IMG/VR virus record: IMGVR_UViG_3300020400_000045
Location: 1-22,614 of that record
Direction: 5' to 3' (one strand)
DNA length: 22,614 nucleotides
Source: a virus
Shown here: positions 1,212 to 22,000 of the stretch, piece after piece
How positions within the stretch are numbered: the stretch's first letter is position 1
Layout of the letters: each line of letters starts with the position of its first letter
Translations under genes and position numbers: made by a program
The notes under the pieces: model-generated
Told to the model about the DNA's origin: nothing
Databases searched by the model: none
The model's input: only the letters and a program-made list of their open reading frames with translations

Positions 1212-3353
1212 ATGAAGCAAAAAGATTATAATGTAAGCAACTACGCCTACACCAATACCGCAAAAGAAAACACAACAACAAAAAATAAAATTGACGAATC
1301 GAGGATAGTACCAAACGCCCTCTTCAAATATGCTAGTTATAACACACTATTCACGCTGAGTGCTTTGACACAGGCAGAGTTAGAAAATCCTGAAACACTA
1401 CTGAAAGGTGGCATTCACGATATCATTGCAAGGAGCGGTGGTATAGGAAATCCAAACCCAACAGACAATTTAAGTGCCGAAAACAAAGGACAGATAAAAT
1501 CAGAATTGGGACAGCAGGCATTAGGCGATGCACGTGAAAATTTAAAAAGAGGACGTGATCTTTATTTTTCAAAAGTTGAAATGATTAATGTACCCGGCCT
1601 AAACGAAAGAAGACGTAGCACTTCAGTTACTAACATCAGCATGACAATTCAAGAGCCGTTGGGTATAAGCCTGCTTGATAAAATGCGTGGTGCGGCGGCA
1701 AATTGCAACTACCTAGATCACATTAGTGCACCGTACATGCTTACAATGGAGTTCAAAGGTTATGACGAATTTGGAAAACTGATATCAGAAAGAGACCAGA
1801 AGAGCCTCACTAGGAAAATACCTATCAAGATTACAAACATGGAGTTGGACGTAAATCAAGGTGGAACAACTTATCAAGTTACAGCCATTCCTTACAATGA
1901 ACATGGATTTCTTAATCACTTCGTGTATCTTCGTTCATCGGGCACGATCAAGAGGGGTAATACATTACAGGAAACTATGAACAGTCTTGCAGACCTATTG
2001 AACAAGCAGGCGGAAGATGAAAAGAACCAACAGTTGGTCGAAATTGCTGACACATACGAAATAGTGGTAGACAAATTTTTTGATGGCAAGGAAGTGTTCT
2101 CAGATAAAAGAGTGGGAGACATACCGGTAGGCCCCAACCAGAAAAAACCAGATCATCTAAGGGCCGCTCAGGTTAAATCTAACGACAATGTCCTTACTAT
2201 TATAACCGAGTTAATGAAATCTTTAAGGATGTTTTCTGATAACGAAGGGCTCGATGCATTCAAACAGAGAATTGAAACTGCAGAAGGCGATGACATGTAT
2301 TTCGATTATTTTATGATAGAATCAAGTGTTGTGCCGGATTCAGAGCAGTTTGACAGGATTAGAGGAAAGCATCCAAAAAAAATTACATTCAATATAGTGC
2401 CCTACAAAATACACGCCTATGCACTAGCGGAGCCTGGCGCCAGTACTGGAAAATATTTTGGTCCTTATGTTCGGAAAGAATACAATTACATTTTCACAGG
2501 TGATAACGTAGATATATTGGACTTGGACATAAAATACAAGGTTGCTTATTTTCAATCCAAATTAAAAGACATCGAAGGAAAAGGATCGGGTGATGTGTTT
2601 TCAAAAAACAATACCGAGTCAAGGGACGTAGAAAAGGTCGTTCCTGGCACTGCAGACAATTTCGCTGATCCGCCTTACATATATCAGTCTGAAGTAGGAA
2701 ATGCAAAAAGTATTACTTCCGGTGTCAACAAAGGATCAACAACTGCTTTAGATCAGAGGCTCGACGCATTGTCAAATCCACAAGCAGACATGGTAGTCTT
2801 AAACATGACTATATTGGGAGACCCGGCCTACTTGGGACAGTCACAATTTATTCCAACCACTGCGAAAAAGGATGTACTAGAGGCAAATAAAAAAAAATTA
2901 TCATTTTCTGCAGGAAACAGGAGTATTTGGAACGCAATATTTGGCAATTACAACTTGGGATTTGGTGATGCGGTTGTTAAACTTAATTTCAGAACTCCCA
3001 CAGATGTCGATGACGTCACAGGTGTATACGAACTTGCCAAAGATGAACAGATAGCATTCTCTGGATTGTATAGAGTGCACCAAGTTACAAATAGTTTCGA
3101 GGATGGACAGTTTACGCAGACTCTTACGATGACAAGATTTAAAAACCAAGGAAACAAACCTTACGTCCCTCAAGGTAAAAAATATGTAAAATTCAATATC
3201 CATAACAACTATGGACCTCAAATTGGTGGTGGTCTCGTTGAAACAGGTGAATATGTAAATGAGGTTTCTTTAGTAAAAGATAAGTTCAAGTCTTACGTAG
3301 AGGGCAAGATAGCCTTGTTGAAATCAAAATTTAATATAGGAAGGCTGTCATAA
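1212..3353 (+). CDS. Large baseplate hub-type structural protein, possible gp27 counterpart
   Basis: A 713-residue protein that resembles a large virion protein seen between gp53 and gp5 in marine T4-like phages. I infer a hub role like that of T4 gp27 (391 residues), the trimeric ring that holds the spike, from its position directly before the gp5-type spike gene. Recognisable segments are a beta-rich block near 140-240 (EPLGISLLDKMRGAAANC; from Y167, YLDHISAPYMLTMEFKGYDE; IPYNEHGF from 226), YNYIFTGDNVDILDLDIKY from 424, ILGDPAYLGQSQFIP, and a C-terminal FSGLYRVHQVTNSFEDGQFT followed by TQTLTMTRFKNQ. No signal peptide, membrane helix or catalytic motif is evident. AGGA at 1201-1204 gives good seven-base spacing. 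The last base of its stop is the first of the next start. Structural identity is fairly safe; equivalence to gp27 is inference. Confidence 0.6.
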   Translation: MKQKDYNVSNYAYTNTAKENTTTKNKIDESRIVPNALFKYASYNTLFTLSALTQAELENPETLLKGGIHDIIARSGGIGNPNPTDNLSAENKGQIKSELGQQALGDARENLKRGRDLYFSKVEMINVPGLNERRRSTSVTNISMTIQEPLGISLLDKMRGAAANCNYLDHISAPYMLTMEFKGYDEFGKLISERDQKSLTRKIPIKITNMELDVNQGGTTYQVTAIPYNEHGFLNHFVYLRSSGTIKRGNTLQETMNSLADLLNKQAEDEKNQQLVEIADTYEIVVDKFFDGKEVFSDKRVGDIPVGPNQKKPDHLRAAQVKSNDNVLTIITELMKSLRMFSDNEGLDAFKQRIETAEGDDMYFDYFMIESSVVPDSEQFDRIRGKHPKKITFNIVPYKIHAYALAEPGASTGKYFGPYVRKEYNYIFTGDNVDILDLDIKYKVAYFQSKLKDIEGKGSGDVFSKNNTESRDVEKVVPGTADNFADPPYIYQSEVGNAKSITSGVNKGSTTALDQRLDALSNPQADMVVLNMTILGDPAYLGQSQFIPTTAKKDVLEANKKKLSFSAGNRSIWNAIFGNYNLGFGDAVVKLNFRTPTDVDDVTGVYELAKDEQIAFSGLYRVHQVTNSFEDGQFTQTLTMTRFKNQGNKPYVPQGKKYVKFNIHNNYGPQIGGGLVETGEYVNEVSLVKDKFKSYVEGKIALLKSKFNIGRLS

Positions 3354-6106
3354 TGTCAGGATTACACAATTATCTTAAAGGTGACGCTTCAACACCCAAG
3401 GCACCCACAACCAACGAAGATTGGGGATCCTTATCACCTGGTCCCTATGTTGGAATAGTAAAGGCCAACAATGACCCTTTACGGGCAGGTAGACTTAAAG
3501 TTTTTATACCATCATTGAAAGGAAACGTCAGCACAGATTTTGATGGATTGATAGACTGTGACTACCTATCTCCATTCTACGGCAACAAAGGACTGAGACA
3601 CGTCAAGCCTGGCAACAAGCACACCGATTCACAGTTCTCATATGGATTCTGGGCAGTGCCACCTGACCTAGAGACCAGGGTACTTGTGATATTCGCAGAA
3701 GGCAAGATGGAAGAAGCGTTTTGGATAGGGTGTGTACAAGAACCTTTAACAAATCACATGACACCTGGTATAGCATCATCACAGCAAGTAACAGATGAAC
3801 TGGGAGGTAACACTTTAGAAGAATATGGATCATTGAATTTACCTGCTGGAGAAGTCAACAGATACGTTGACGTTGATCAAAATAATTACACCACAAAAGG
3901 CAAACCTGTCCACCCATTAGCAGACACCTTAATGAAACAGGGTCTGAGTTCGGATAATATAAGAGGAAACACTACTTCGTCAGCACAGCGTGAATCACCC
4001 AGCCAAGTTTTTGGTTTGAGCACACCGGGTAGGCTGAACCCAGGAGCAACACCCACGAAAATAGGTGCAAATGACTCTGAAGAAGAAGCAATAGTAGATA
4101 GACTGACTGGCCACACTTTTGTCATGGACGATGGTGCTGAGGATGGTTCTAACCAATTAACAAGATTACGTACTTCGTCTGGTCATCAATTGTTGATGCA
4201 TGACTCCGAAGGCATTGTGTACATTGCCAACGGATCTGGAAACGCTTGGATAGAGATGAACAGCGATGGCAGGATTGATATCTATTCTGGTGTGGGCGGA
4301 ATAAACATGAGGACACAGGGGGACTTTAACTTACACGCAGATGCAAATATAAACATGCACGCCGGACAGTCGATACGTATGTCAGCGCCAGGTTCAGACG
4401 ATGTGTTTTACTCTGCCGATGACATATCGGTCAAGAAAGGTCAGAAAAGCACCGCCGACATCAAGGTACCAAGGAGACCAGGAGAGATATACTTGTCAAC
4501 GGATTATCTGCAGACTATGGCAGATAAAGGATTATTCACAAGTTCACAGAATGGACAGATTTCAATGTACAGCAAGGGCGGTATGTTTTCATATACGGAT
4601 GGCCAGATATTGGCAGGTGCGGGAGGACAGATACACTTGGCCGGCGCACAGGTACACTTCAATTCGATAGGAGCGAGTAAGGAATGGGGACCGCATTGGT
4701 TGACTCCAGAAAAAGTAGGCATGGAACCGAGGCTAGAAGGAGATGTGGAATTGGCTAAAAAAGGAATAGAACCTTTGCGTCCTTTCACAAAACAGACAAA
4801 GACAACAGTACACAGATTCATCACACACGAACCAGTTCCGAGATTCAAGGGATTCTCCACAGATGGTGCATTGCCAAGTCTTGATCCAACAGATGACCAG
4901 ATGGATACAAAAATGTGGTCCAAGTTGTCTCGTACGCCAGGAACAACGGAATACACAGAACAGAGAAATAGATTATCAAGCAACGAAACCATTAGGTTGG
5001 GTCAGTTTCAGGCTGACGCAGAGAGAGTATTACGACAGAAAATGGGTACTTCTACTAGTGGGACAGACGCTAGAAAGATACTACAAGAATTTGGAAAAGA
5101 TTACGACAAAATGTTTAACATTGAAAGCATGATGAAAGGCAAATGGGATAAGGCAAACAGTATCAGTCAAAAACTTGGAGACTTCAATATATCAGACAGT
5201 GTCAACAGCGTGGTCAACAACACGACTAAAAAATTAGCAGATCAAGTTATAGATACAGTCACAGGTTCAAAAGCGGCGGAAATGTTCAAGGATAACGTGT
5301 TTGTTAACCAGGCAGGTGAACTTTTTGCTCTTGGCGGAGGTGCAGACTTCTCTAAACTTGCGGCCGGCAATGTCAAAGGGTTTGCGACAGATGTTGGTTC
5401 TAAAGCATTGGCCAATGTGGCAAACGAAGCCTTCAAGAAAAATGTTGTAGGAAACTTGACCAAAAAAGCAATAGGTGTTGACAAGTTCGGAAACACAATA
5501 TACAGCAGGACAGGAATACTGCCTGCAAAAATTGGAAACATAGATGTTTCAGGTATAGTAGGAAACATTAACATTGCCAACCTTGCATCAATAGGTGATC
5601 TTAAAGCAACCACCAACGTTTTCAAGAACGTGGTAGCAGGACAGGTTACTTCAGCGGTGACACAGACAGCAATATCGGCCGTCAAATCACAAGCCTCATC
5701 TTTCATTACTGGTCTACTAGGAAAAAGTACAGCACGAGAATTGGCTCGTACAGGTGGAGTGAATGCTATGAGTAGTCTTGGACTAAAAATTGGGTCGACG
5801 GCCCTACCGAAATTTCTCGGCGGTAAAACAATTTCTACAGCATTAAGCAGTATAGGTAAAAGTGCAGTGGGCAAATTTTTCAGTTCGGGATTTAGTTTTA
5901 GTGACGTAAGACTAAAAGAACAAATAAGGTTTGTTGGCAAATCACCAACAGGAATAAACATATATTCATTTAAATATAAACAACTGCCCGGAAGGTATAT
6001 TGGTGTTATGGCACAGGAGGTACCATGGGCAAGGCATATGACAGACACCGGTTACTATGCTGTTGATTACAGCAAGGTGGATGTAAAATTTAGGAGGTTA
6101 CAGTAA
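3353..6106 (+). CDS. 5: Gp5-type baseplate central spike with C-terminal S74 domain, no lysozyme domain
   Basis: A 917-residue spike protein that should sit under the hub as a trimer and pierce the envelope. Residues about 31-133 are the gp5/VgrG OB-fold (GPYVGIVKANNDPLRAGRLK, then FIPSLKG, and FAEGKMEEAFWIGCV). A linker follows with IRGNTTSSAQRESPSQVFGL. From about 276 (SGHQLLMHDSEG) short repeating strands such as INMHAGQSIRM look like the gp5/VgrG beta-helix, to about 440. Residues about 600-849 are rich in Ala, Gly, Ser, Val and Ile. Residues 850-917 are an S74 intramolecular chaperone (SDVRLKEQI, GINIYSFKY, GVMAQEV, VDYSKV). Its likely catalytic pair is Ser850 and Lys855, with cleavage just before Ser850. 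T4 gp5 has a lysozyme of about 160 residues between OB-fold and helix; here the gap is shorter and shows no such domain. AGGAAGG (3338-3344) precedes the start. Confidence 0.85.
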   Translation: MSGLHNYLKGDASTPKAPTTNEDWGSLSPGPYVGIVKANNDPLRAGRLKVFIPSLKGNVSTDFDGLIDCDYLSPFYGNKGLRHVKPGNKHTDSQFSYGFWAVPPDLETRVLVIFAEGKMEEAFWIGCVQEPLTNHMTPGIASSQQVTDELGGNTLEEYGSLNLPAGEVNRYVDVDQNNYTTKGKPVHPLADTLMKQGLSSDNIRGNTTSSAQRESPSQVFGLSTPGRLNPGATPTKIGANDSEEEAIVDRLTGHTFVMDDGAEDGSNQLTRLRTSSGHQLLMHDSEGIVYIANGSGNAWIEMNSDGRIDIYSGVGGINMRTQGDFNLHADANINMHAGQSIRMSAPGSDDVFYSADDISVKKGQKSTADIKVPRRPGEIYLSTDYLQTMADKGLFTSSQNGQISMYSKGGMFSYTDGQILAGAGGQIHLAGAQVHFNSIGASKEWGPHWLTPEKVGMEPRLEGDVELAKKGIEPLRPFTKQTKTTVHRFITHEPVPRFKGFSTDGALPSLDPTDDQMDTKMWSKLSRTPGTTEYTEQRNRLSSNETIRLGQFQADAERVLRQKMGTSTSGTDARKILQEFGKDYDKMFNIESMMKGKWDKANSISQKLGDFNISDSVNSVVNNTTKKLADQVIDTVTGSKAAEMFKDNVFVNQAGELFALGGGADFSKLAAGNVKGFATDVGSKALANVANEAFKKNVVGNLTKKAIGVDKFGNTIYSRTGILPAKIGNIDVSGIVGNINIANLASIGDLKATTNVFKNVVAGQVTSAVTQTAISAVKSQASSFITGLLGKSTARELARTGGVNAMSSLGLKIGSTALPKFLGGKTISTALSSIGKSAVGKFFSSGFSFSDVRLKEQIRFVGKSPTGINIYSFKYKQLPGRYIGVMAQEVPWARHMTDTGYYAVDYSKVDVKFRRLQ
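5900..6103 (+). other. Peptidase_S74 / intramolecular chaperone domain of the spike
   Basis: Codons 850-917 of the spike gene encode a compact S74 domain. The order SD-x-RLK (S850, K855), then GINIYSFKY, IGVMAQEV and a terminal VDYSKV matches the family found at the ends of phage spikes and fibres. In characterised members the domain trimerises, helps the upstream beta-structure fold, and is cut off just before the serine. Both catalytic residues are present, so removal of the last 68 residues is expected. Confidence 0.8.
6092..6098 (+). promoter_or_regulatory. Strong ribosome binding site of the gp25 gene
   Basis: AGGAGGT, a near-perfect Shine-Dalgarno, lies seven bases before the ATG at 6106 and inside the end of the spike gene. 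It is the strongest such site in the window. Together with the TAATG overlap it should give high, coupled translation of gp25. Confidence 0.8.
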
Positions 6107-6534
6107 TGGCATATGGTAGTTCAGGATCCGGATCTGGAGGTGGAGGAGATCTAAAAGACAAGCAGGTGGCTTTTAAAGGCTTTAGCAGTCGTTCAGATAA
6201 GACTAATTTCAAACTTTACGATTTCGAAGTAGCCAAACAGGATTTGATCAATAGGCTTTCGATACGTAAAGGTGAGCGTGTTGAGAATCCAGAATTTGGA
6301 ACTATCATATATGATGCGATATTTGAACCATTTACAGAATCACTTAAAGAAGCAATTCTCGACGACATTACAGCAAATCTTAATGCAGATCCACGTATAT
6401 CAACTGAGGACATAACCGTATCCGAAGCAGAACAAGGCATATCAGTACAGGCTACAATAACATACGTGCCATTGAACATCACCGAAAAACTTAACTTCAA
6501 TTTCGATGAAAACTCCTTGTTGCGCCTATCTTAA
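6106..6534 (+). CDS. 25: Baseplate wedge protein gp25
   Basis: A 142-residue member of the GPW/gp25 family (T4 gp25 has 132), a conserved sheath-initiator wedge protein of contractile tails and type VI secretion systems (TssE). In T4 it binds the gp6-gp53 wedge and templates the first sheath ring. The N-terminus is an unusual flexible Ser/Gly run (SSGSGSGGGG). The family core follows at about 40-80: KLYDFEVAKQDLINRL, IRKGERVENPEFGTIIYDAI and FEPF, where the ERVENPEFG-type strand is the family signature, and the C-terminal half is the expected alpha/beta domain. It overlaps the spike gene by one base and closes the first transcription unit. It is followed by a 42-base gap with a new promoter-like box, so gp6 is under separate control. 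Confidence 0.92.
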   Translation: MAYGSSGSGSGGGGDLKDKQVAFKGFSSRSDKTNFKLYDFEVAKQDLINRLSIRKGERVENPEFGTIIYDAIFEPFTESLKEAILDDITANLNADPRISTEDITVSEAEQGISVQATITYVPLNITEKLNFNFDENSLLRLS

Positions 6535-9500: not shown

Positions 9501-10074
9501 ACTTAGGATCAATTACTCCGGTACGCTTAATCCTTTGAAATCACTTTCGGATCAAATTGTTTATCATCCGGTAAAATATAAAATTCTTTTTGGTAGCAAA
9601 GCGGCCGAGGAACTGCAGGCAACATTCAAGGTTGTTAAGAATCCAAAAACCAATATCACTGACGCAGTAATCAAAACACGGGTCATAGCCGCAATAAACG
9701 AATTTTTTGCGTTAGATAACTGGGATTTCGGAGATTCATTTTATTTCACGGAACTAGCCGCCTTTATACACAATCAATTGGCGCCTGATTTATTAACGGC
9801 AGTAATTGTTCCAAACCAATCCGGACAGAGTTTTGGGTCTCTGTTCCAGATAGATTCAGCGTCAGACGAAATTTTCATCAGTGGGGCCACCGTTGGTGAT
9901 GTATCAATCATAAGTGCATTAGGAGCCAACCAATTGGCGGCCTCTGGCACAGTTGTGACATCTACATCAACTGCCACAAGCAATAATAATACTTCAACAT
10001 CAGGTTCGACGGTATCAGGCTCTACTACATCAGGATCGGGATCAAGTTCCGGCAGTAGTGGGGCAGGATATTAA
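6577..10074 (+). CDS. 6: Baseplate wedge protein gp6, long marine form
   Basis: Gp6 forms the inner ring that ties the baseplate wedges together around the hub. This one has 1,165 residues against 660 in T4. The N-terminus is clear: LLVAEDWQKIYQSF, YDFETLRRTMVAYLRENYP, DFVESSEYVALIDLIAYIAQ, and LNARENFLETAERRNS. VFGDGNFSNLPLGSFR near 340 and MITAEDYQVVPLSA near 430 are further family blocks. The C-terminal domain also matches: WDFGDSFYFTELAAFIHNQL and FGSLFQIDSASDEIFISGAT. The extra length lies mainly between about 480 and 990; it includes an acidic loop DDDDDGVVDNPD (815-826) like a calcium-binding loop. The last 45 or so residues are almost all Ser, Thr, Gly and Asn, a probable flexible tail. 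No Shine-Dalgarno precedes the ATG, and the predicted leader is very short. It overlaps the next gene by one base (TAATG). Confidence 0.93.
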   Translation: MATTDRQNRLLVAEDWQKIYQSFQQADFKSYDFETLRRTMVAYLRENYPDDFNDFVESSEYVALIDLIAYIAQALSFRVDLNARENFLETAERRNSVLRLARLINYNAKRNKPATGLLKINSISTTQDVVDSSGVNLANQTINWNDSANSNYREQFVAILNAANQTGQLFGNPRESGPIGGINTEVYTLSSNQIDLPLFKYVKTVGGISRQFEIVPSTIANSDSIYESDPIPGTGLTYTYRTDGGGDSSNNTGFFFLFKQGSMQYADFNVDTAITNYVRSIAVNNINDSDVWLYKLDQFGQVAEKWTQVPSLSGNNAIYNSLSASERNTYNVVTKADDAIDLVFGDGNFSNLPLGSFRTYHRVSDNVKYAITPADMASVSFSVPYTDANGAQQTLALSVGLKSSVYNSAAAESNASIKEKASQVYYSQNRMITAEDYQVVPLSASQEIVKVRSVNRTASGISRAKEILDPTGAYSNVSVFADDGILYREESTQQFTFTFNNRSDIQQVIDSSVEAKLKQAYSRHFYYFKYGTKDLSTLTATWNSSTTGTNTNTGYFAGSGGGALSIGDFATSNFKFAKTGAIIKFTSPDTRGFLNNSLVTAGTDDAQDRKWAKIGAVDGDGANSGVGNLESGLGPVTLSSIIPDGAVVNAVIPNLSTSFLESLELDIIDRIEAFEEFGLRYDVDSESYKVITSTNLSTSSVFSLDNTGDTSGTNLDASWWFKFTNDGNTYTVTYRKLDYIFESESQNKFHFDTEEKIYDYKTGKTVKDVVKILKTNSLVSTGNSIGYPITWQVTDTVTEADGYRDNRKVKVGFFDDDDDGVVDNPDIFDIIVEPTLSVSTKFVFFEKYISYDNIERFRPYSTTNFVVTEKEANINLNTSTYTDGQLFYFYASDEDVIKKYSSTTNTLSTTTDYLARKGRRSLNFQYKHHAGQETRIDPSVSNIVDVYLLERTYDNLYRIWLQDGGTMPSTSTSDQLRINYSGTLNPLKSLSDQIVYHPVKYKILFGSKAAEELQATFKVVKNPKTNITDAVIKTRVIAAINEFFALDNWDFGDSFYFTELAAFIHNQLAPDLLTAVIVPNQSGQSFGSLFQIDSASDEIFISGATVGDVSIISALGANQLAASGTVVTSTSTATSNNNTSTSGSTVSGSTTSGSGSSSGSSGAGY

Positions 10075-13000
10075 TGGCCGATAACATTACAAACTCATTA
10101 TCAAATAACGAAGTAGTCAAGCAAGGCAACAACGAGTACAGGCGTACAGTACAACAACTACCTGCTTTTTACAGGACAGATTCAAATCAAAGATTCCTAT
10201 CAAGCACCGTTGACCCATTTGTGCAGAAAGGCGCTCTAGAAAGACTAGATGGTTACATAGGCAGACAGGACGCATACACTAGGGGTGTAAATGATAGATA
10301 CATCAATGCAACAAGCAGAGACAGATATGCATATCAACTCGAGCCTGCTGTAACATACACTAACAGAGATACCACATCTGTGAATCCAGAGGATCAAGTC
10401 AGATTTACAGGAACATATGATGACTACATCAACCAAATAAAATATTTTGGAGGCCTTGTTAATAATCATGACAGATTAAACAAGGAACGTGTTTACAGTT
10501 GGAATCCTGCCATAGACTATGATAAATTAATCAATTATAGGGAATACTACTGGATTCCAGAAGGCCCAGGATCTATACAAATTGATTCGGTAGGACCATC
10601 CGCAGTTGCGGAGTATAAGGTTGAAAATTTGGCACAAGGAGCCTACAACTTTTCTCACAGGGAAAATGAAAACAATCCAACCCTAACGCTGTACAGAGGC
10701 AACACATACAAATTCAATGTCAATGCTAAAGGACATCCTTTTTACATAATGACTGAGCCATACAAAGATGGTTCCACTGATTTATTTTATAAATCAGGTG
10801 TTACAAACGCTGGCGCGGTCTATGGCACCGTGACCTTTACAGTGCCTAAAGATGCTCCAGATATACTCTACTATCAATGTGGCAACCACAATGCCATGGG
10901 TGGTATACTTCAGATAAAAGATATCACTGCAACAACGGAAATTAATCCGGCCGACGACATAATTGGGGCAAAGAATTACAGTCTTAGGACTTTAGACCTA
11001 TCCAATGGTATGAAAATTAAATTTACAAATAGTCTTGTAGGCGCAGATTACAAAGATAAAGAATATTATGTTGAAGGTGTAGGAGATGCTATCACCCTGA
11101 CCGATGTCGAAGACATGATTACACCTGGCAGTTATTCAACAGAATCTACTGTACTGTATGATGCTGTTGGTTATGACACAAGGCCCTACGCAAAATCATT
11201 CTACACACCAGACAATCAGGATTACATTACAATTAAGAGGGACTCTCGTGACCAGAATGCTTGGTCTAGATACAACAGATGGTTCCATAGGGAGGTCATC
11301 GAGGAAACTGCTAGAGTAGGAGGTTTCACTCCCACACTAGATGAAAACAGTAGGGCAAAAAGACCAATTATTGAATTTGATTCAGGTTTGGCATTGTACA
11401 ACCACGGAACAGTTGCTAAAAAATCAGTAACATTGCTGGACACAGTTACAACTGATGCGTTCAGCACAGTGGTAAAACAGACTGGTTATATTATTGACGG
11501 CTTGCCTTTAGAAGATGGCATGAGGGTAGTGTTCACAGCAGACACAGATAGCACTGTCAAGAATAAGATATACACTGTGAACTTTGTGACTGCAGGTGAT
11601 TCAACACAGGTCATATCATTGACAGAAGCCACAGATAGCACAGCATCTGCTGACGACAGTATCTTTATTGAATTTGGTTTAACTAACCAAGGTAAAACAT
11701 TACATTATGACGGTGTGACGGGTTCATGGAAAGAATCACAACAAAAAACTGGAGTAAATCAACAGCCTTTATTCAGTATGTTTGATAACGATCATACAAG
11801 TTTCGATGATGCTACAAAATATCCTAACAGTTCATTTGTGGGTGCAAGTGTGTTCAAATTTTCAACGTCAGATACGGCAACAACAGACACAGTCTTAGGA
11901 ATTAAAGTCAAATACAACACTGTAAACAATGTTGGAGATATAGTATTTGAATCGGATCATACAAGTGGTACATTCACTTATAAATCAGGAAAAACTACGT
12001 TAACTAAAAATCTCGCAGAAGGACATTTGCATTACACAACAAGTAAAACAACACACAACAACAAAAGTGCATGGGTCGAAAGGACAAACCTAAGCAAACA
12101 AAGAGTAGTAAGGACATTTACAGTAGGGAGTACAGAGAAAAAATTGTTTCCTATAGATTGCTTTGACAAATCTGCAAACATAAGTGATCTCGAAGTTTCG
12201 GTTTTAGTAAATGGAGAAAGAAAAACACTCTTAACAGATTTCACATTGGTAAATGGAACAAAAAACAAATATGTTAAATTTAATAAAGATCAAAACACAA
12301 ACGATCAAATAAGGCTGGCTGTGTACAGTGCTAATGATAAGGTAGAAGCGAAAGGTATCTATGAGGTTCCTGAAAACTTATCAACCAATAGTAGCAACGA
12401 CAAATTGGGAACATTCACGTATGGGCAAATCCTCAGACACGTAAGGGACATATTTGATAAGAATACAAGTCTCGTTGGTTCTGTCCCGGGTGCTACTAAT
12501 TTGAGAGATAATCCAGATGCAAGATTACTAGGCGGAACGATACATCAACACGAAGGTCCGCTTATGCCTGCTATATTTGGTCTCATAGATCAAGAAAGTA
12601 ATTTAATCAACGCCATAGAATACACTACTCAGGAGTATGAAAAATGGTATGATTCATTTTTAACTCACGCCGTAGGCACTGCTTACGAAGGAGTTGCCGC
12701 AGATAGGGTTGACGAAATAATAGCCAGCATTACGCAAGGCAGAAATTCATCTTTCCCGTTTTTCAATGAGGACATGTTGGGACATGGAGAAAATGTCACT
12801 ACAAGGTCTTACACTGTACAAGGATCATCACAGACCGAATATGCTATAGATTCTATGCATGACATTACAAAATCTAGCAACAGGGCGGTATACGTTTATC
12901 TTAATGACGTCCAATTACTTTTAGGGAGCCATTACACATTCAGCACCACAGATGACAGTGTCAATATCACAGCCACACTGGCCGAGGGAGATAAGATTGT

Positions 13001-16000
13001 AATCAAAGACTATGCAGACACTAAAGGCAGTTACATGCCTGTATCACCAACCAAATTGGGAATATATCCTAAGTACACTCCAGAACTTTTTACCGATGAC
13101 ACGTATATCACTAGTACTTCAGTAATACGTAAACACGATGGTTCTATTATAAAAGCATATGGAGATGAAAGAGATTCTCTTATATTAGAATTAGAAAAAA
13201 GAATTTATAACAACCTTAAGACAAATTATGACAACACTTTGCTACAGATCAACGATATCATGCCAAGTGCTTTCACATCTACCGAATATAAGTTAAGTGA
13301 AGTTGACAGCGTGATGGCTTCTGATTTTTATTCGTGGGCAGGACGTGGTAATGTTCAATACATTAACAACACTACATTCGTAGAAGGTTCGCCGTTCACG
13401 TACAACTACGCTCTTTCAACTTCTAAAAAGACAGGCGACAAATTGCCTGGATATTGGAGAGCAATTTACAAATTTTACTATGATACAGATGCTCCTCACG
13501 TGAGACCATGGGAGATGTTAGGTCATTCAGAGAAACCGTCGGATTGGGACGATACATATGGCCCTGCACCATACACTTCTGGCAACAATGTTCTATGGAA
13601 TAAGATTGCAGGTGAATCAGGTAGGTATGGAAAGCCTACTATAAATGATTATCTACCGGTTGATGCTTCGGGTAATTTACTTGACCCTTTACAGATAGGA
13701 CTTGTAAAAGATTTAGACATAGCAGGAAGGTCAACAGGTTGGAAGTTTGGTGACCAAGCGCCTGCTGAAACCGCCTGGAGGAGATCTTCATCATATCCAT
13801 TTACGGTGATCAAAACTTTAGCACTGACAAAACCTGCAAAATTTTTCAGTAACTTTTTCGATAATTCCAGGTTAACAACAAATGTAGCCGGAAACCAAAT
13901 TGATAAGGACACTGGCATACGTGCTACGCTTGGCTCTGCCAAATATCACCTCGAAACGGAAACAGACAATAAAACAGGAGTGACAACCACGTATCTTACT
14001 GCAGGATATCAACCGTTGATTGTAAACTATCTGATATCGAGAAATCTCGATGCAAAAACATTTTATTATGACAAGATGAAAAATTTAAAAGTTCAGTTGG
14101 CTTACAAACTTGGAGGATTTACAGACAAAGAAAATTTAAAAATACTTACAGATTCTGTATCTCCTGGATCAACGTCGGGATCCAAATTTATTCCAGACGA
14201 AAACTATAAGATTTTATTTAGAACATCAAATCCGGTAAACAGTTTTGAATACTCGGGTGTGTTGATAGAAGCAAATACGGATACAACAACAAAGACTGAC
14301 GGATCAACAGTTACAAATGTAGGCGGATATAAGGTACTAGGGTATTCGAAAGCCAAACCTTTCTTTAAGTTTTACTATCCTATAAAAAATACAAATCCAT
14401 CGCCTGTATCTGTGGAGGGTTCAATTGAAGTCAAAAAATATGAAAGTTATCATGAGCAAGTGCAAACTGTGCCTTATGGTCATGTATTCAATACTATACA
14501 GGATGTAGCAGATTTTCTTTTTGGTTACGGACATTACCTAGAAGATCAAGGATTTAAATTTAATAAATTTTCAAATGAACTCAAAGAAACATTGAATTGG
14601 ACCAATGCGGTAAGAGAATTTCTGTTTTGGACTACACAAAAATGGACTCCTGGGTCAGCAGTAACAGTTTCTCCGGCCGCTGATGGATTCGAATTAGATA
14701 CCACAGACAGTATTGTTGGCAGAATGAAGAACCAAGCAGGTGATTACTCTATACTTGATTCTGGCGGAAGAAAAATTGATATCAGAGAATTATCAACTAA
14801 AAGATTAGGAAAAACTTTTGAATTAGCAATCAAATCACCGGACGTAGGATTGTACAATATTGCACTTAACACAGTCCAGAAAGAACACATTCTTCTTTTT
14901 GACAACAAAACTGTGTTCTCTGATATTATTTACGAGCCGTACACAGGTTTCAGACAGCAAAGACTCAAATTAGTAGGATGGAAAACAGCAGGATGGAATG
15001 GTGATTACTATGCACCAGGTTTTGTGTTTGATGCGGCTCAGGTAACTTACTGGTCTGCAAATACAGATTACAGGATTGGGGATTCAGTTGAATACCAAGG
15101 CAAATTCTACGTGGCGAAATCAAATCATAATTCTGGTGGCAAGTTTGAAACAGAATCTTGGACATTAAAAACTGATAAGCCAGCACCACAACTTATACCT
15201 AACTTCGAATACAAAATTTCTCAATTTAATGATTTTTATGACCTCGAAACAAACAACTTTGATGAATCACAGCAAAAATTAGCACAGCGATTAATCGGTT
15301 ACAAATCTAGGGATTACTTAGAAAATTTATTTGTCAATGACGTGTCTCAATACAAATTCTACCATGGATTTATTAAAGAAAAAGGAACACAGAACGCAAT
15401 AGATAAACTTTTAAAGGCAAAGTATGAGGGAGAAGACATAGATTTACAACTTTATCCAGAATGGATGATAAGGACCGGAAATATCGGTAACACAGATTCA
15501 ACGGAAAGTATTCAAATTATTTTGCCTGAAGCCGAAATTAGAAGCGATCCACAGAGCATTGAACTACTAGAAACCACAAATGACACTGCGGACTATTCGA
15601 GGTCTAAAGGCGTAGCAAAAGAAAATCTGTTTTACAAACCTGTTGAGTACGATACCTCTTCGACTTTTAGTCAACTTGATTACACAAAGCAAGGAGTTGA
15701 CAAAGAGTCCGCTCAGGTATACAAGACTGCAGGATATCCTCAATTGGAGCAGGTACAACATACAGCATTCAATATTACAGACCTGTTTAATTTAGACGTA
15801 TCAAGGGTGAAATCCAGTGAACTTATTTGGGTTGCAAATAAATCAAATAAAGACTGGGACGTATTTAGATTAACAGCAGGAGATTTCAAAATTTCTACTG
15901 TAAGGACTGTAAACAGTGCCACTCAGTTAGAAATTGTGTTCACAGGGTCACATGGTTTGTCCCAAGGTACACAGACAACAGAACCAGACTATTTTGCTAT

Positions 16001-19000
16001 CAGCAACAGTGAAGAAGAGACGATGAACGGGGTGCATCAAGTGTCCAGTGTAATAGATCATAAGACTGTTGTAATAGATTATGAGGGGAACACTGCTTTT
16101 ATTCCCGCTTTGGATGATGGATCTACATCAGATAGTTACGGAAATATTTACAAATTTGTGTCTGTCAGATTTGATAGCATGGACAACGTAAATGATAGAT
16201 TAAATTATTCTGTGTACAAAGACAGAGATGACAGTATAGAACTGGAAGGTGATAAAGTTTTTGCGGACAACGACACTTCCAATTTATGGCGTGTGTATGA
16301 AAAGCAAGATCCTTACACATTGCAAACAATACTATCACCAGACACTGCTACGGCCGGACAGGAATTTGGACACCGTGTAGTGGCACGTAATGATGGTAGA
16401 ACTATCGTTGCGTCTAGTCCAGGGAAAGGCCAAGGAACAGTTAACTTCCTATTCAGGTCTATAGCATCTGCAGGAAACATATTTAGGAATCAATCATCTG
16501 TAACAACTACTGTTGGAAATGATACCACAGGAAGACTTGGCGAGTCATTATCAATGAGTACCGATGAAAATTTTGTTGTTGCTGGTGCGCCTTATGCCAA
16601 CTCGATAGGATCAGATGGAAGTACAAGGTTTGCGGATGCAGGTGCAATAAAAATATTCTTATGGGATCCAGACACATTCAAATATGGAACACTAGTGACG
16701 AGAAGACCACCAACAGACGCGGCATCTCAAAACTTTGGTTGGGCACACAAAATTGCTGAGCCTGGCTCGAGTTCAACTAGAAGCACTCCAACGAAATACA
16801 TGTTTGTTTCTTCGCCTGGTTTGACATCAGATAAGGGTAGAGTATACATGTACGAATGGGGAATAGGTGCTGACGGCTCAACATATGACACTTGGACTCA
16901 ATGTGCAACAATAGATTCACCAGAGGGAGGCTCAGGACAGAGGTTTGGACATAGATTGGAAATTAACGATAATGGTGACATACTGGCAGTAAGTTCACTT
17001 GCTCCAGGCAACGCAGGAAAAGTTGACATATTTGTAAGATCATCTCAGTCAAACGATGACAGCGTAACACATTCTTTCACACACATGCAAACACTTACAG
17101 GAGTATCAGCAGATGGGTCAAGTTTGAACACACAATTCGGCGATTCAATTGCTATGAGTAAAGATGGAACAATGTTGGTTATAGGTGCACCGGGCGTTGA
17201 CAAAGTTGGACAAGATGACGGTGGTGCTGTATACACATACAAATGGAACGCAGACGGGTCTACAAACACTTACACATTACAACAGACTATCGAAGCACCT
17301 GATCCTCAAGGCAACATGAGATTTGGTACATCGTTGAGTATAAATCAGTCAGGTACTAGGTTAGTCATTGGTGCTGACAATTTCTCAAGTACAAGAGAGA
17401 TGAAATTAGACAATGGCGAAACAACTTTTGACCTACAAGACACAACTTTTATTGACATAAACAAAGGATCTGGTAGTGCTTACACTGCCACGATGTACAA
17501 CACTAAATTTGCAATTGATGACAGGTTAGTGACAGACAGTGTTACTGAGCATGACAAGTTTGGAAAAGGCGTATGTGCAATAGACGACACAATAATTGTT
17601 GGAGCACCTAGCGACGATGGCAATGTAACCTCCGATGGAAGTACAAGAGTACAAAATGATGGCACAGTATCCTGTTTTGACTTGTCAGTTTCTGGTCAGT
17701 ATGCATGGAAGAATATAACAACAGAGACACCTTTGATGGACATTGAAAAAGCAGGACATGTATTTGACTTTAACAATAAGTCTAAACAAATAAGAGATCA
17801 TTATGACCTTTACGATCCAGTCAAAGGACGTATTTTAGGAATCGCTGATAGGGAAATAGGTTACAAAACGATGTGGGATCCTGCGGCCTACAATACTGGT
17901 GAAGAGTCCACTCAAAAAACACCGTGGGGTGCAGAACACATAGGTGAGGTATGGTGGGATTTATCAACAGTGAAATGGCTCTGGTATGAGCAAGACACAC
18001 AGGAATACAAATTTAATCACTGGGGACAGAAATTTCCAGGCTCAAGAATAGACATTTACGAATGGACGGAATCTCCTGTGCTACCTAGCGTTTGGAACAC
18101 TAGATCAGGCACACAACAAGGAGTAAAAGAAGGCATTTCTGGAGTGGCGGCATACTTTGATGATTCGAGATATAATGTTGTAAGGAAATATAATTCTGCT
18201 GTTGATAGATTTGTCAACGTGTACTATTTCTGGGTAAGAAACAGATCAACAGTTCCTATGAACAGTGTTGTGCCTAGGAAAAACAGCACTGCATTTGTTA
18301 GAAATATAATAGATTCACCCCAAAATTTCTCGTACAAATATTATTCAATCACGGACACAAACAAACTTATTATCAATAATATAGGTGGTCTCGTAAACAG
18401 CGACATAGTATTGAACGTTGATATAAGGACCAATACGTTTGAAGGAGATTCACACTCGGTATGGAAACTGGCAAGGGAAGGTGACAAGGATTGGAGACCG
18501 GGATTACAAATAGAAACACGTTGGTGGGATTCATTGACAGGTAAAAATACTGCAGGTGACAAAGTGCCAGATATCAATCTAGGATTGAACAGGAGATATG
18601 GAAACAATATAAGGCCTAGACAAAGTTGGTATGTTAACAGATTTGATGCTTTAAAAGAATTAATAGATTATGCAAATACTGTTTTGAAGAAACATCAGTT
18701 GGTTGGAACAATTAATTTAGAAAACCTGAACAGTAAAGATCCAGAGCCTACTGCACAGAGTTTGTTGTGGGACGCATCTGTAGACACATACGCAGAATTA
18801 ACATACATAGACACCAAAGATCTTTCAGGCACAGTTAACTATCTTGTGAAGGCAGACGAGACCGCTAATAATTTCTGGGCAATATACAAATGGGATGGCA
18901 CAGAATGGTCACGTACGAAACTGCAGACTTACAACACAGGATCTTATTGGAGTTACGTAGACTGGTATGGTACAGATCCTGCCATACACGAAATGATCCA

Positions 19001-22000
19001 CAGTGAAAAGACACCTATTGACAAGCAGGTAACATTCCAATACGAATTGGACACATTGGACCTGCCGATAGGCAAACACGTCAAGGTAACCAACAGCGAC
19101 ACAGGTGGTTGGAAACTATTCATGAAAACGGCCACAGGATGGGCCAATGTTGGAACGGAAAATGGCACGATCAGACTCAGCACGAAGTTGTATGATTATT
19201 CACAGGACGCAACAGGATTTGCTGGATCAGACAACTTTGATGATAATTTCTTTGACCAAGAGCCTTCAACGGAAACTAGAAAAATCTTAACAGCACTACG
19301 AGATGACCTGTTTATCAACGAACTAGCACTAGAATACAACACACTGTTCTTCACAGGATTAAGAAAAGTTCTAGAAGAACAAACATACGTAGACTGGATG
19401 TTTAAGACTTCATTTATCAATGTAAAAAACTCCGTAAGGAAATTAGATCAGAGAAAGACATACACAATTGGTACAGACAATTGGATCGAAAGTTATATAA
19501 ATGAAGTCAAACCATTCCACACAAAGATCAGAGAATACAAGTTAGGTTATACAAACATTGAAACGCAGGATGGAATCTACACAGACTTTGACAATCCTAC
19601 ATTCTATGATTCAGAAACGGGCAAAATTAGGTCATTAAACGTTGACCTTGACAGTGATAAACTTACTGAATTCCCATATCAGATGTGGCACGACTACCAC
19701 AAAAAGTATGTGCAGTCAATCACAGTCACACATGGTGGTTCGGGATACCAGGAAGTACCAACGGTCACAGTGCTTGGAGGAACGATAGGTTCTACAGGAC
19801 CATTCCAGATTCAGGCAACAAGTTCGTCGGGACCTACAAGTGGCCAGTTTGGTTACTACTATCCGTTGTTTACAAGCGAGAAGCAGGCGCAGATTTATGA
19901 TTCTCAAAATGGTGGATCAGGCACAACTAAAACCTACAACTTTGATGGATACTCGGGCAATTTTTATGGGCCAAATTCTTCTACGATAGAATCGTCAAGT
20001 TCCAAATCCGGAGTGTTCAAGATGTATGTTACGCCTACAAACACAGCGGCGACAGCCACAGCAACCATACAGAATGGTGCGGTCACAAGGATCACAGTGA
20101 CAGGGGTTGGTGCGAACTACAACACCACACCTGTTGTGATTATTTCCGGTGGACGTACAGACGGCACAACACCAACTGACACGGCCAAGGCATACGCAAA
20201 TTTAAACAACGACCTTGTAAGGGATATAGACACGACTATCAAATTCGATAGGGTGTCAAGCACATCAAGGGTACAAGACTGGGCGGCTTCAACTGCATAC
20301 GCATACAATGATTTAATAAGACACAACAACCAACTATACAAGGTTACAAAAGCATTCACGTCAACAACTGATTTTGATGACAACACAGCAGATCTTTACA
20401 AGGTGTATGGAGATGAAACTGGTCTTACAGCGGCAGACAGGACTAAAGGTTTCTACACTCCAGGCACTGGAATGCCTGGCAACGAACTTGATCAGGTAAT
20501 GACCGGTATAGACTATGGTGGAACTATGGTCACAGGACTGCTGTTTAATCAGAGCCAAGGATGGGACAGATCAGGTTGGTACGATTTTCCATGGGATCAA
20601 TATGGAAGTTCTAGGATCAAGGCATTCAGAGCGGATGGTACAGCCAACACTTTTACATTTGACACTGCTCCTTCTAGTTCAGAAGTGTTCCAAGTGTACA
20701 TCACAGAGGATGACAGCACTAGAAGAAAACTTTCAGATGTCGTGAGGGGCGATGGTTCAACGGTTCAATTGCCGATTGGTGGATTAAGTATAACACCGAA
20801 TGCAAACGCATTAGTAGAGTTCATACCTTTCGATGACGATGGTGTGCTTACACCAACAGATGACAGGACACTAGATTCTATAGTCAAAGGAGGACTATTT
20901 GGTTCAGCATTAGGTCATGCACCTAGCGATCTAATACTTGAAGGTGACGACTTCTTGTCGCCAGATACAAGTTACGCACCCGAAGAGACTGTGCCGGGAC
21001 AACTGTTTGACACCGTTGACATAAAGGTTTACACGTCACCAGAGTCGGGTGTGCCATTTATTACAGAAAAAATTTACAGAGGAAATGGAAGTACAACTAC
21101 GTTCTCCATAGGAGATCACCCAGGAACACTAGCATCAGTTACAGTGAGTGTAGATGGTGTAGTTAAAAAATTAACAACTGATTACACAATTGATGTTGCA
21201 AACAAAACAATTACATTTGGATCTGCACCTGCTAACAACAGTGTAATATCAACTAGAGTTTTTGCAATATCAGGTGACAATTATAGGGTACTAGACACAT
21301 TTGTTGGTGATAATGCCACAGCATCTTTCACCACATCATCAAGAAGTGAATTTAATCTTGACTCTACTGTGTCAGACATTTTTGTAACACAGGACGGTGT
21401 ACCAAGGACAGATTTTACACGAACCATAAGTGCAAACACTGTCACAATTACTTTTAGTGCACCAGTGCCACCGACAGGTGCTTTTATACAAGTTGCGGGA
21501 TTCAACAAGTCAGCAACTTCTCCGACAAGGAGTTTTGCAAGTATTAGGAATCAAGAATTGACTTATGCAAGTGGAACGAACAGATACACATTGACATATC
21601 CGCCAGGATCGATAGGTCCATTCTCAGGATTGACAATAGTAGAATTAAACGGAAGAGTGTTGAGAGGTCCAGACAACACTTATTATTTGGGTGACGGAAG
21701 CACATACACATACGGAGTTGCATCAGGATTGCTTGATGATTCAACGGTGGATCCTCCAAAAACTATCTCCAGTGCCAGCCAAGTGCAGGTATTTGTAAAT
21801 GGTATACAAAAAGATCTAAACACTCATTACACTGTTGATATAGGAAATCAAAACGTAAATTTTGTGACTGCGTCTGTGCCAACATCGTCAGATGTGATAT
21901 GCATATCGACCTTAGTTGACAATCAGTATTTCAATGAAGGCACAGACATCATACTAGTCCCAAGTGCAATCACTTCGCCTTACTCATTATCAGCCGGTGA

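Follow-up and report, generated by a model that had tools for sequence, protein, structure and literature searches.

A gp5-type central spike with a short C-terminal S74 domain, probably a self-removed cap, in a viral baseplate cluster

The central spike protein gp5 of phage T4 combines an OB fold with a beta-helix and carries a lysozyme between the two. During maturation it is cut between Ser351 and Ala352 (PMC3004832), a site between lysozyme and helix and not near its C-terminus. For RaK2 and CBB a C-terminal lysozyme in gp5 has already been described (PMC3622015, PMC5259590), while in phage A-1(L) peptidase and endoglucanase activity were assigned to the hub, and the relevant passages of PMC10966104 describe the spike without an enzyme. 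Self-cleaving S74 domains are classically found on fibres, appendages or a transcription factor, whereas the protein described here is a cell-puncturing spike. The GA-1 neck appendage (PDB 3gud; name from PMC8326128), endosialidases and MyRF share the same SD...K dyad at the cut, and in MyRF a C-terminal coiled coil drives trimerisation and is required for cleavage (PMC8326128). Small S74 domains have been noted in group 2 jumbo phages, in a passage of PMC7824862 that does not name gp5, and a 'chaperone of endosialidase' in T4-like alphaproteobacterial phages, in a passage of PMC10783043 that does not name the protein. A description of S74 on a gp5 spike was not found in the open-access literature searched; PMC11058221 and PMC11450229 contain both terms, and the 'S74' of PMC7909554 refers to a page.

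The window, by which we mean the whole stretch of 22,614 nucleotides that was analysed, is a 22.6-kb virus record with a T4-type baseplate cluster. Comparison with Pfam and PHROGs gave the gene order gp53 (PF11246), a virion structural protein (phrog_11190, called hub from its position only), the gp5 gene, gp25 (PF04965), a gp6-like wedge protein (phrog_10646) and the start of a giant gene. The gp5 gene is a real open reading frame of 917 codons, with its ATG at 3353 and a stop codon ending at 6106, and it has a start/stop codon overlap with its neighbour on either side. The features are as follows.

3353..6106, + strand: gp5/VgrG-type central spike (phrog_13211, 'baseplate hub subunit and tail lysozyme', E 2.8e-40), member of a baseplate cluster with gp53, gp25 and a gp6-like gene
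3437..3742, + strand: OB-fold domain, residues ~29-130 (PF04717 at 97-128; alignment with PA5oct, RaK2 and Atu_ph07)
3743..4177, + strand: connector, residues 131-275, at the place of the T4 lysozyme, without an enzyme match (collinear in PA5oct, Atu_ph07 and RaK2)
4178..4672, + strand: predicted beta-helix, residues ~276-440 (DUF2345 below cut-off; Foldseek on the full model)
4823..4834, + strand: T-H-E-P motif, residues 491-494, invariant, closing the core (minimal relatives extend little beyond it)
4895..5332, + strand: helical domain, residues ~515-660 (AlphaFold2 model of 497-668)
5333..5899, + strand: variable, cationic segment rich in Gly/Ala/Ser, residues 661-849, with the aromatic tail KFFSSGFSF at its end
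5897..5902, + strand: predicted self-cleavage site F849/S850 (Phe or Trp before Ser in 86 of 88 gp5s; 3gud begins at the equivalent Ser)
5900..6103, + strand: short S74 domain, residues 850-917 (PF13884; Ser850 at 5900-5902, Lys855 at 5915-5917)
6106..6534, + strand: gp25, baseplate wedge (PF04965), start codon overlapping the gp5 stop

The nearest named relatives of the spike are gp5s of jumbo phages, namely those of PA5oct (33% over residues 30-499), Atu_ph07 (36%) and RaK2 (33%), and we infer that the phage of the window is itself a jumbo phage. Relatives also occur among MAGs and single cells from Pelagibacter, SAR-type sea bacteria and similar groups; the phage is probably marine. The giant open reading frame at 10074-22613 is still open after at least 4180 aa and has FG-GAP_2 and CBM_5_12 matches, together with a T7 tail-fibre N-terminal match below the cut-off. 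At this place PA5oct has an 11.6-kb gene.

Judged by sequence, the protein is a gp5/VgrG-type central spike with a core common to jumbo-phage gp5s. The OB domain (PF04717) was matched at 23.8 bits, exactly the Pfam cut-off of 23.8, and the beta-helix-type DUF2345 at residues 315-437 with 26.7 bits, below its cut-off of 30.7. Foldseek with the full-length model returned VgrG and contractile (eCIS) spikes as best matches, which are weak (E 2.4e-3 or worse), and since the model is poor (mean pLDDT 43.4) it supports 'spike-like' at most. The gp5s of PA5oct, SCTP-2, Atu_ph07 and RaK2 share the OB fold, the connector, the beginning of the predicted beta-helix and a HEP/FEP-like core end with the window spike, and their genes likewise have gp53 upstream. 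They differ from it behind the core, and no S74 match was found in any of the four. The gp5s of PA5oct and SCTP-2 stop after the core and have no enzyme match anywhere in the protein, whereas those of RaK2 and Vibrio 2.275 carry a lysozyme past the helix plus an M23 match below the cut-off, which in RaK2 precedes the terminal lysozyme. Atu_ph07 gp5 (L003, 5905-8502) ends in a trypsin-like peptidase domain (PF13365, residues 700-849), an unusual cargo for a spike.

The original prediction stated that no lysozyme lies between OB fold and helix, and this was borne out. Phage_lysozyme (Pfam) has no match there, and the connector of about 140 residues aligns collinearly to PA5oct, Atu_ph07 and RaK2, which have no enzyme at this place, without an enzyme-sized insert. 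A muramidase fold hidden in residues 134-275, which had been named as one finding that would overturn the claim, was not found and is ruled out by the collinear, enzyme-free relatives together with a model that is mostly strand and coil. The weight given to this absence as a novelty with respect to T4 did not survive, because all five named jumbo relatives examined are likewise without a lysozyme match at the T4 position. Since the jumbo relatives carry enzymes past the helix or none at all, the T4 arrangement is not the right yardstick for this family.

Wall-opening enzymes were also sought elsewhere in the genomes of relatives. In larger relative records of 48-139 kb, which may all be fragments, Phage_lysozyme and SLT gave no match in 15 of 15, and M23, M15_4, NlpC/P60 and Amidase_2 none in 14 of 14. 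As a control, Phage_lysozyme matched in four of the five named jumbo genomes, and six lysin families had matching controls; for GH19 no control matched, and that search is uninformative. PAAR matched in none of 14 larger relative records and in two of four named genomes.

Between the core and S74 lie about 350 residues of helical and low-complexity sequence. AlphaFold2 predicted residues 497-668 as all-helical (mean pLDDT 76.9). This helical domain is conserved (every row of its alignment has E533) and gave no convincing fold match. The variable segment that follows (661-849) has a net charge of +14.

The C-terminus of the spike matches Peptidase_S74 (PF13884, residues 850-890). With the whole protein the score was 19.5 bits, below the cut-off of 22; on the tail alone (25.4 bits) and in the genome search (24.3 bits) it was above the cut-off. 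The Ser-Lys dyad, Ser850 and Lys855, is present at the N-terminus of the domain. In an alignment of 56 rows (the window and 55 distinct complete homologues) S850, D851, R853 and K855 are found in 55, the one row without them being L022, which has no S74. Of 122 distinct S74 tails, 121 have SDxRxK; the remaining one, L273, still has Ser and Lys. These patterns argue that S74 in the spike is not a chance match and uphold the earlier reading of an S74 C-terminus with both residues intact. All 27 diverse S74 tails tested matched PF13884 at E 0.01. When the S74 profile was searched against the PDB, the only match at E 0.1 was the neck appendage domain 3gud (E 0.0076), covering residues 1-70 of its 129-residue chain, and residue 1 of that chain is a Ser, the equivalent of Ser850. 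The spike therefore has the same N-terminal half of the domain as 3gud in 68 residues instead of 129, and the distance from Ser to chain end is 68 aa in 97 of 121 S74 tails. From this it follows that the C-terminal coiled coil of classical trimerising ICA/CIMCD S74 domains is missing here; the trimer of the spike itself would stand in for it. Twelve of 14 larger relative records contain one S74 match each, in open frames of 802-917 aa, and the two records without a match are those of the S74-less spikes L103 and L099.

To place the domain in its family we used a window-seeded scan of viral contigs, from which the best 80 of 273 related stretches were taken. A wider set comprised 170 distinct complete gp5-core proteins, contig-truncated ORFs having been dropped. 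They came from the window scan (best 80 of 273), from scans with L092 (best 80 of at least 561), L093 (65 of 65) and the L096 tail (best 80 of 173), from a genome scan (8 loci) and from named phages, so that frequencies among the 170 describe seeded scans and are not population estimates. S74 is present in 88 and absent from 82, the latter consisting of 60 extended spikes and of 22 minimal ones that stop soon after THEP. Among the minimal spikes are those of PA5oct and SCTP-2 as well as L093, L179 and L182, whose genes are split. Fourteen S74-less loci were checked for the gene behind gp5: it is gp25 in 13, whereas in L093 a 330-aa ORF stands between the two. In L093 (9986-12493) and L179-L182 the gene is split into a 504-aa core and a separate 330-aa ORF with the helical domain.

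A FastTree phylogeny of the core was built from 158 of the 170 rows, leaving out rows identical in core and state as well as far rows other than L002 and L003. On this tree there are at least nine changes between presence and absence of S74, eight of them forced by starred branches. The four tip classes change 21 times, although long branches make single placements unsure. On the evidence of this tree, S74-less and S74-bearing tips are repeatedly exchanged on a shared core. In 60 sampled pairs with a core pS of 0.15-0.6, pN/pS was 0.19 in the core, 0.33 in the helical domain, 0.42 in the variable segment and 0.18 in S74. Synonymous divergence was lower in S74 than in the core (median pS 0.30 vs 0.52; e.g. 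L019, L020 and L021), which suggests that S74 DNA spread recently or by recombination; for the same reason, the conservation of S74 is partly to be read as recent shared ancestry or recombination.

The residues in front of the conserved Ser are highly biased. Among the 88 distinct complete S74 gp5s Ser is preceded by F in 78, by W in 8 and by L in 2, compared with F or W at 3.5% (60/1720) of random upstream positions. The same residue type ends many spikes that have no S74: among the 60 extended S74-less gp5s 37 terminate in F and one in W (38 of 51 after setting aside nine far or enzyme-bearing relatives), and none of the 22 minimal spikes terminates in either. Of the 22 extended S74-less spikes not ending in F or W, nine are those far or enzyme-bearing relatives and 13 are not. 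An aromatic pair occurs in the last 14 residues of 75/88 S74 forms (counted before Ser), of 39/60 extended S74-less spikes and of 0/22 minimal ones, and in 3% of other 14-mers of the extension. The commonest end before Ser is FKF|S (23/86) and the commonest S74-less end is FRF (25/40), the class 'FFend' being partly defined by its own ending; S74-less extended spikes often end in ...SFFRF. These ends are alike in kind, as seen from VRSFFSGFKF|SD in the S74-bearing L123 and AVRSFFRF in the S74-less L103, and the predicted mature end in the window is ...GKFFSSGFSF. Mean charge per 18 residues is +1.73 in S74 precursors and +2.22 in S74-less ends, against +0.59 in random 18-mers. The hydrophobic moment is 0.50 in S74-less ends, a modest 0.32 in the 18 residues before the cut and 0.25 at random. 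The class 'FFend' also enters these charge and moment figures and the tip classes of the tree, whereas the counts of last residues and of aromatic pairs are free of that bias.

A close relative, L022, has neither S74 nor a remnant of it before gp25. It stops two residues before the cut position, ending in AIGSLF where the S74-bearing L019 reads AIASVFGF|SDER, and its core groups with those of the S74-bearing L019 and L021 at forks with supports of 87 and 94, which are unstarred. Phe is also common before Ser outside complete gp5s, namely in 26 of 39 S74 tails, two of them truncated gp5s, so part of the Phe signal may be the peptidase's own preference. (Two of 38 S74 tails classed as 'other', L249 and L277, are such truncated gp5s.) Minimal spikes such as L129, L132, L164 and L177 have a common GGRDKDDIA-like C-terminal tail, and 17 of the 22 end in Ala; the longer L116 and L122 have a GGRDKDDIA-like tail after an FF helix.

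A cut at F849|S850 is the best explanation of this comparative pattern, and we regard it as very likely. Release of S74 after the predicted cut is likely too, if by a little less. Because the predicted mature ends resemble natural S74-less ends, the simplest reading is that S74 was fused to, and is removed from, a functional C-terminus. S74 is thus probably a removable cap, with F849 as the mature C-terminus.

S74 is not restricted to spikes. Among 201 S74-bearing ORFs, 154 have a gp5 core, two are truncated gp5s and 45 are other proteins. Of 15 non-gp5 hosts compared with PHROGs, three (L089, L265 and L273) match DNA-ejection families well beyond S74, L096 matches a tail protein, L253 and L311 match phrog_6121 beyond the tail, and nine have tail-only matches. 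The same short S74 ends a hub-like tail protein (phrog_350) in L096 (2456-4702), L235 and L236. The 387-aa gene after the hub-like protein of L096 resembles a short S74-less gp5, by eye only. On the DNA-ejection proteins (phrog_598, phrog_4287) and on L096, S74 is close in sequence and equal in length to that of the spike, and Phe usually stands before Ser. Two Pelagibacteraceae contigs (L097, 1-258; L098, 3-272) start with an S74 tail fragment beside bacterial-looking genes, possibly a provirus edge or an assembly edge.

Our model starts from a gene product that would form the trimeric central spike of a contractile tail. S74 would fold last, and the assembled trimer would position Ser850 and Lys855, so that the chain would cut itself between F849 and S850; this coupling of cleavage to trimer assembly is our inference. 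S74 would then depart, and the remaining tip would end in ...GKFFSSGFSF, resembling the terminus that is written straight into the gene of many S74-less relatives (...SAVRSFFRF). The domain would accordingly act as an assembly-coupled removable cap that covers a sticky tip until the spike is built, and the exposed tip would probably contact or disturb the cell envelope on contraction. Taken as a whole, a trimeric spike with a self-cut S74 cap and a bared aromatic tip with an envelope role is the reading that we consider probable. Its weakest step is envelope contact by the bared tail, which on its own we put forward tentatively, as somewhat doubtful.

A different reading accepts the same cut: S74 cuts itself off but is mainly a classical folding chaperone, and the aromatic tail serves trimer packing alone, without a part to play at the envelope. 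We give this almost an even chance; it shares the cut with the cap model, and the two probabilities are not exclusive. In its favour are the role documented for S74 in phage fibres (PMC8326128; PMC7824862) and the endosialidase precedent, and hydrophobic C-terminal helices could conceivably cap a trimer. However, in classical proteins the beta-helix adjoins S74 (PMC8326128), whereas here some 350 residues separate the two; the domain also lacks the coiled coil, and the tails are cationic. Moreover, some spikes combine this core and this type of tail without S74, which argues that in those phages S74 is dispensable for the core. The short domain without a trimerising coiled coil could also be taken as a fossil or structural cap that stays uncut and forms the actual spike tip. 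This is improbable, given that Ser and Lys are kept in 122 of 122 distinct tails, that pN/pS of S74 is 0.18 and that many S74-less homologues end in the very residue type that precedes the predicted cut.

Enzymes behind the helix in relatives raise the question of whether the extension hides a cell-wall hydrolase, for instance in the helical domain at 515-660. RaK2 and Vibrio 2.275 carry their lysozyme after the helix, with M23 below the cut-off, L094 has a VgrG3-like C-terminal domain and L227 a GH19 domain after the helix, and the helical domain is conserved around its invariant E533. Yet there is no hydrolase among the Pfam, PDB-sequence and fold matches listed, which are all weak, and neither the minimal nor the ~590-aa relatives match the helical domain. 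We therefore dropped a known enzyme as an identity for this domain, which is no proof of a new fold, and consider a hidden hydrolase slightly more improbable than an uncut cap. Most improbable of all is the capture of the C-terminal module from a DNA-ejection protein of podophages. The spike S74 is 56-62% identical to 11 of 14 aligned non-gp5 S74 tails (38-49% to the other three), some of whose hosts are DNA-ejection proteins. When the last 310 residues were searched against phage records, ten matched; in nine of them the match lay in small proteins, at their S74-bearing end or close to it, and the tenth was unannotated. Mae-JY35 aligns to spike residues 708-916 at E 9e-7. This similarity is gone once S74 is removed: in a comparison with three small S74 proteins, among them L089, which matches phrog_598, the linker without S74 gave E 0.026 or worse and S74 alone E 1e-15. 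No homology to the spike was thus detected upstream of S74 in the three proteins tested, which speaks against placing the spike among podophage DNA-ejection proteins (phrog_598/4287). At the level of sequence capture is rejected, S74 alone being held in common.

The S74-bearing spike is not rare in the viral contigs searched, where the domain was found in 54 of 55 distinct complete homologues among the best 80 of 273 related stretches. The family thus amounts to a natural experiment on the purpose of a contractile-spike tip, since on one and the same core it offers cell-wall enzymes, nothing, a bare aromatic tail, or a similar tail under a cap that would cut itself off. A bolder and, in our estimate, unlikely generalisation makes the short S74 a removable cap, used generally, for phage parts that have to enter or traverse the bacterial envelope (spike tips, hub and DNA-ejection proteins). 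The assembly-timed cut of S74 would bare a C-terminus, both cationic and aromatic, for insertion into the envelope, and in a large group of marine T4-superfamily phages this end would do the work of PAAR caps or tip enzymes. If the cap model is true, S74 processing extends to a cell-puncturing device, and a single expressed protein would suffice to test when the spike matures and what its tip does.
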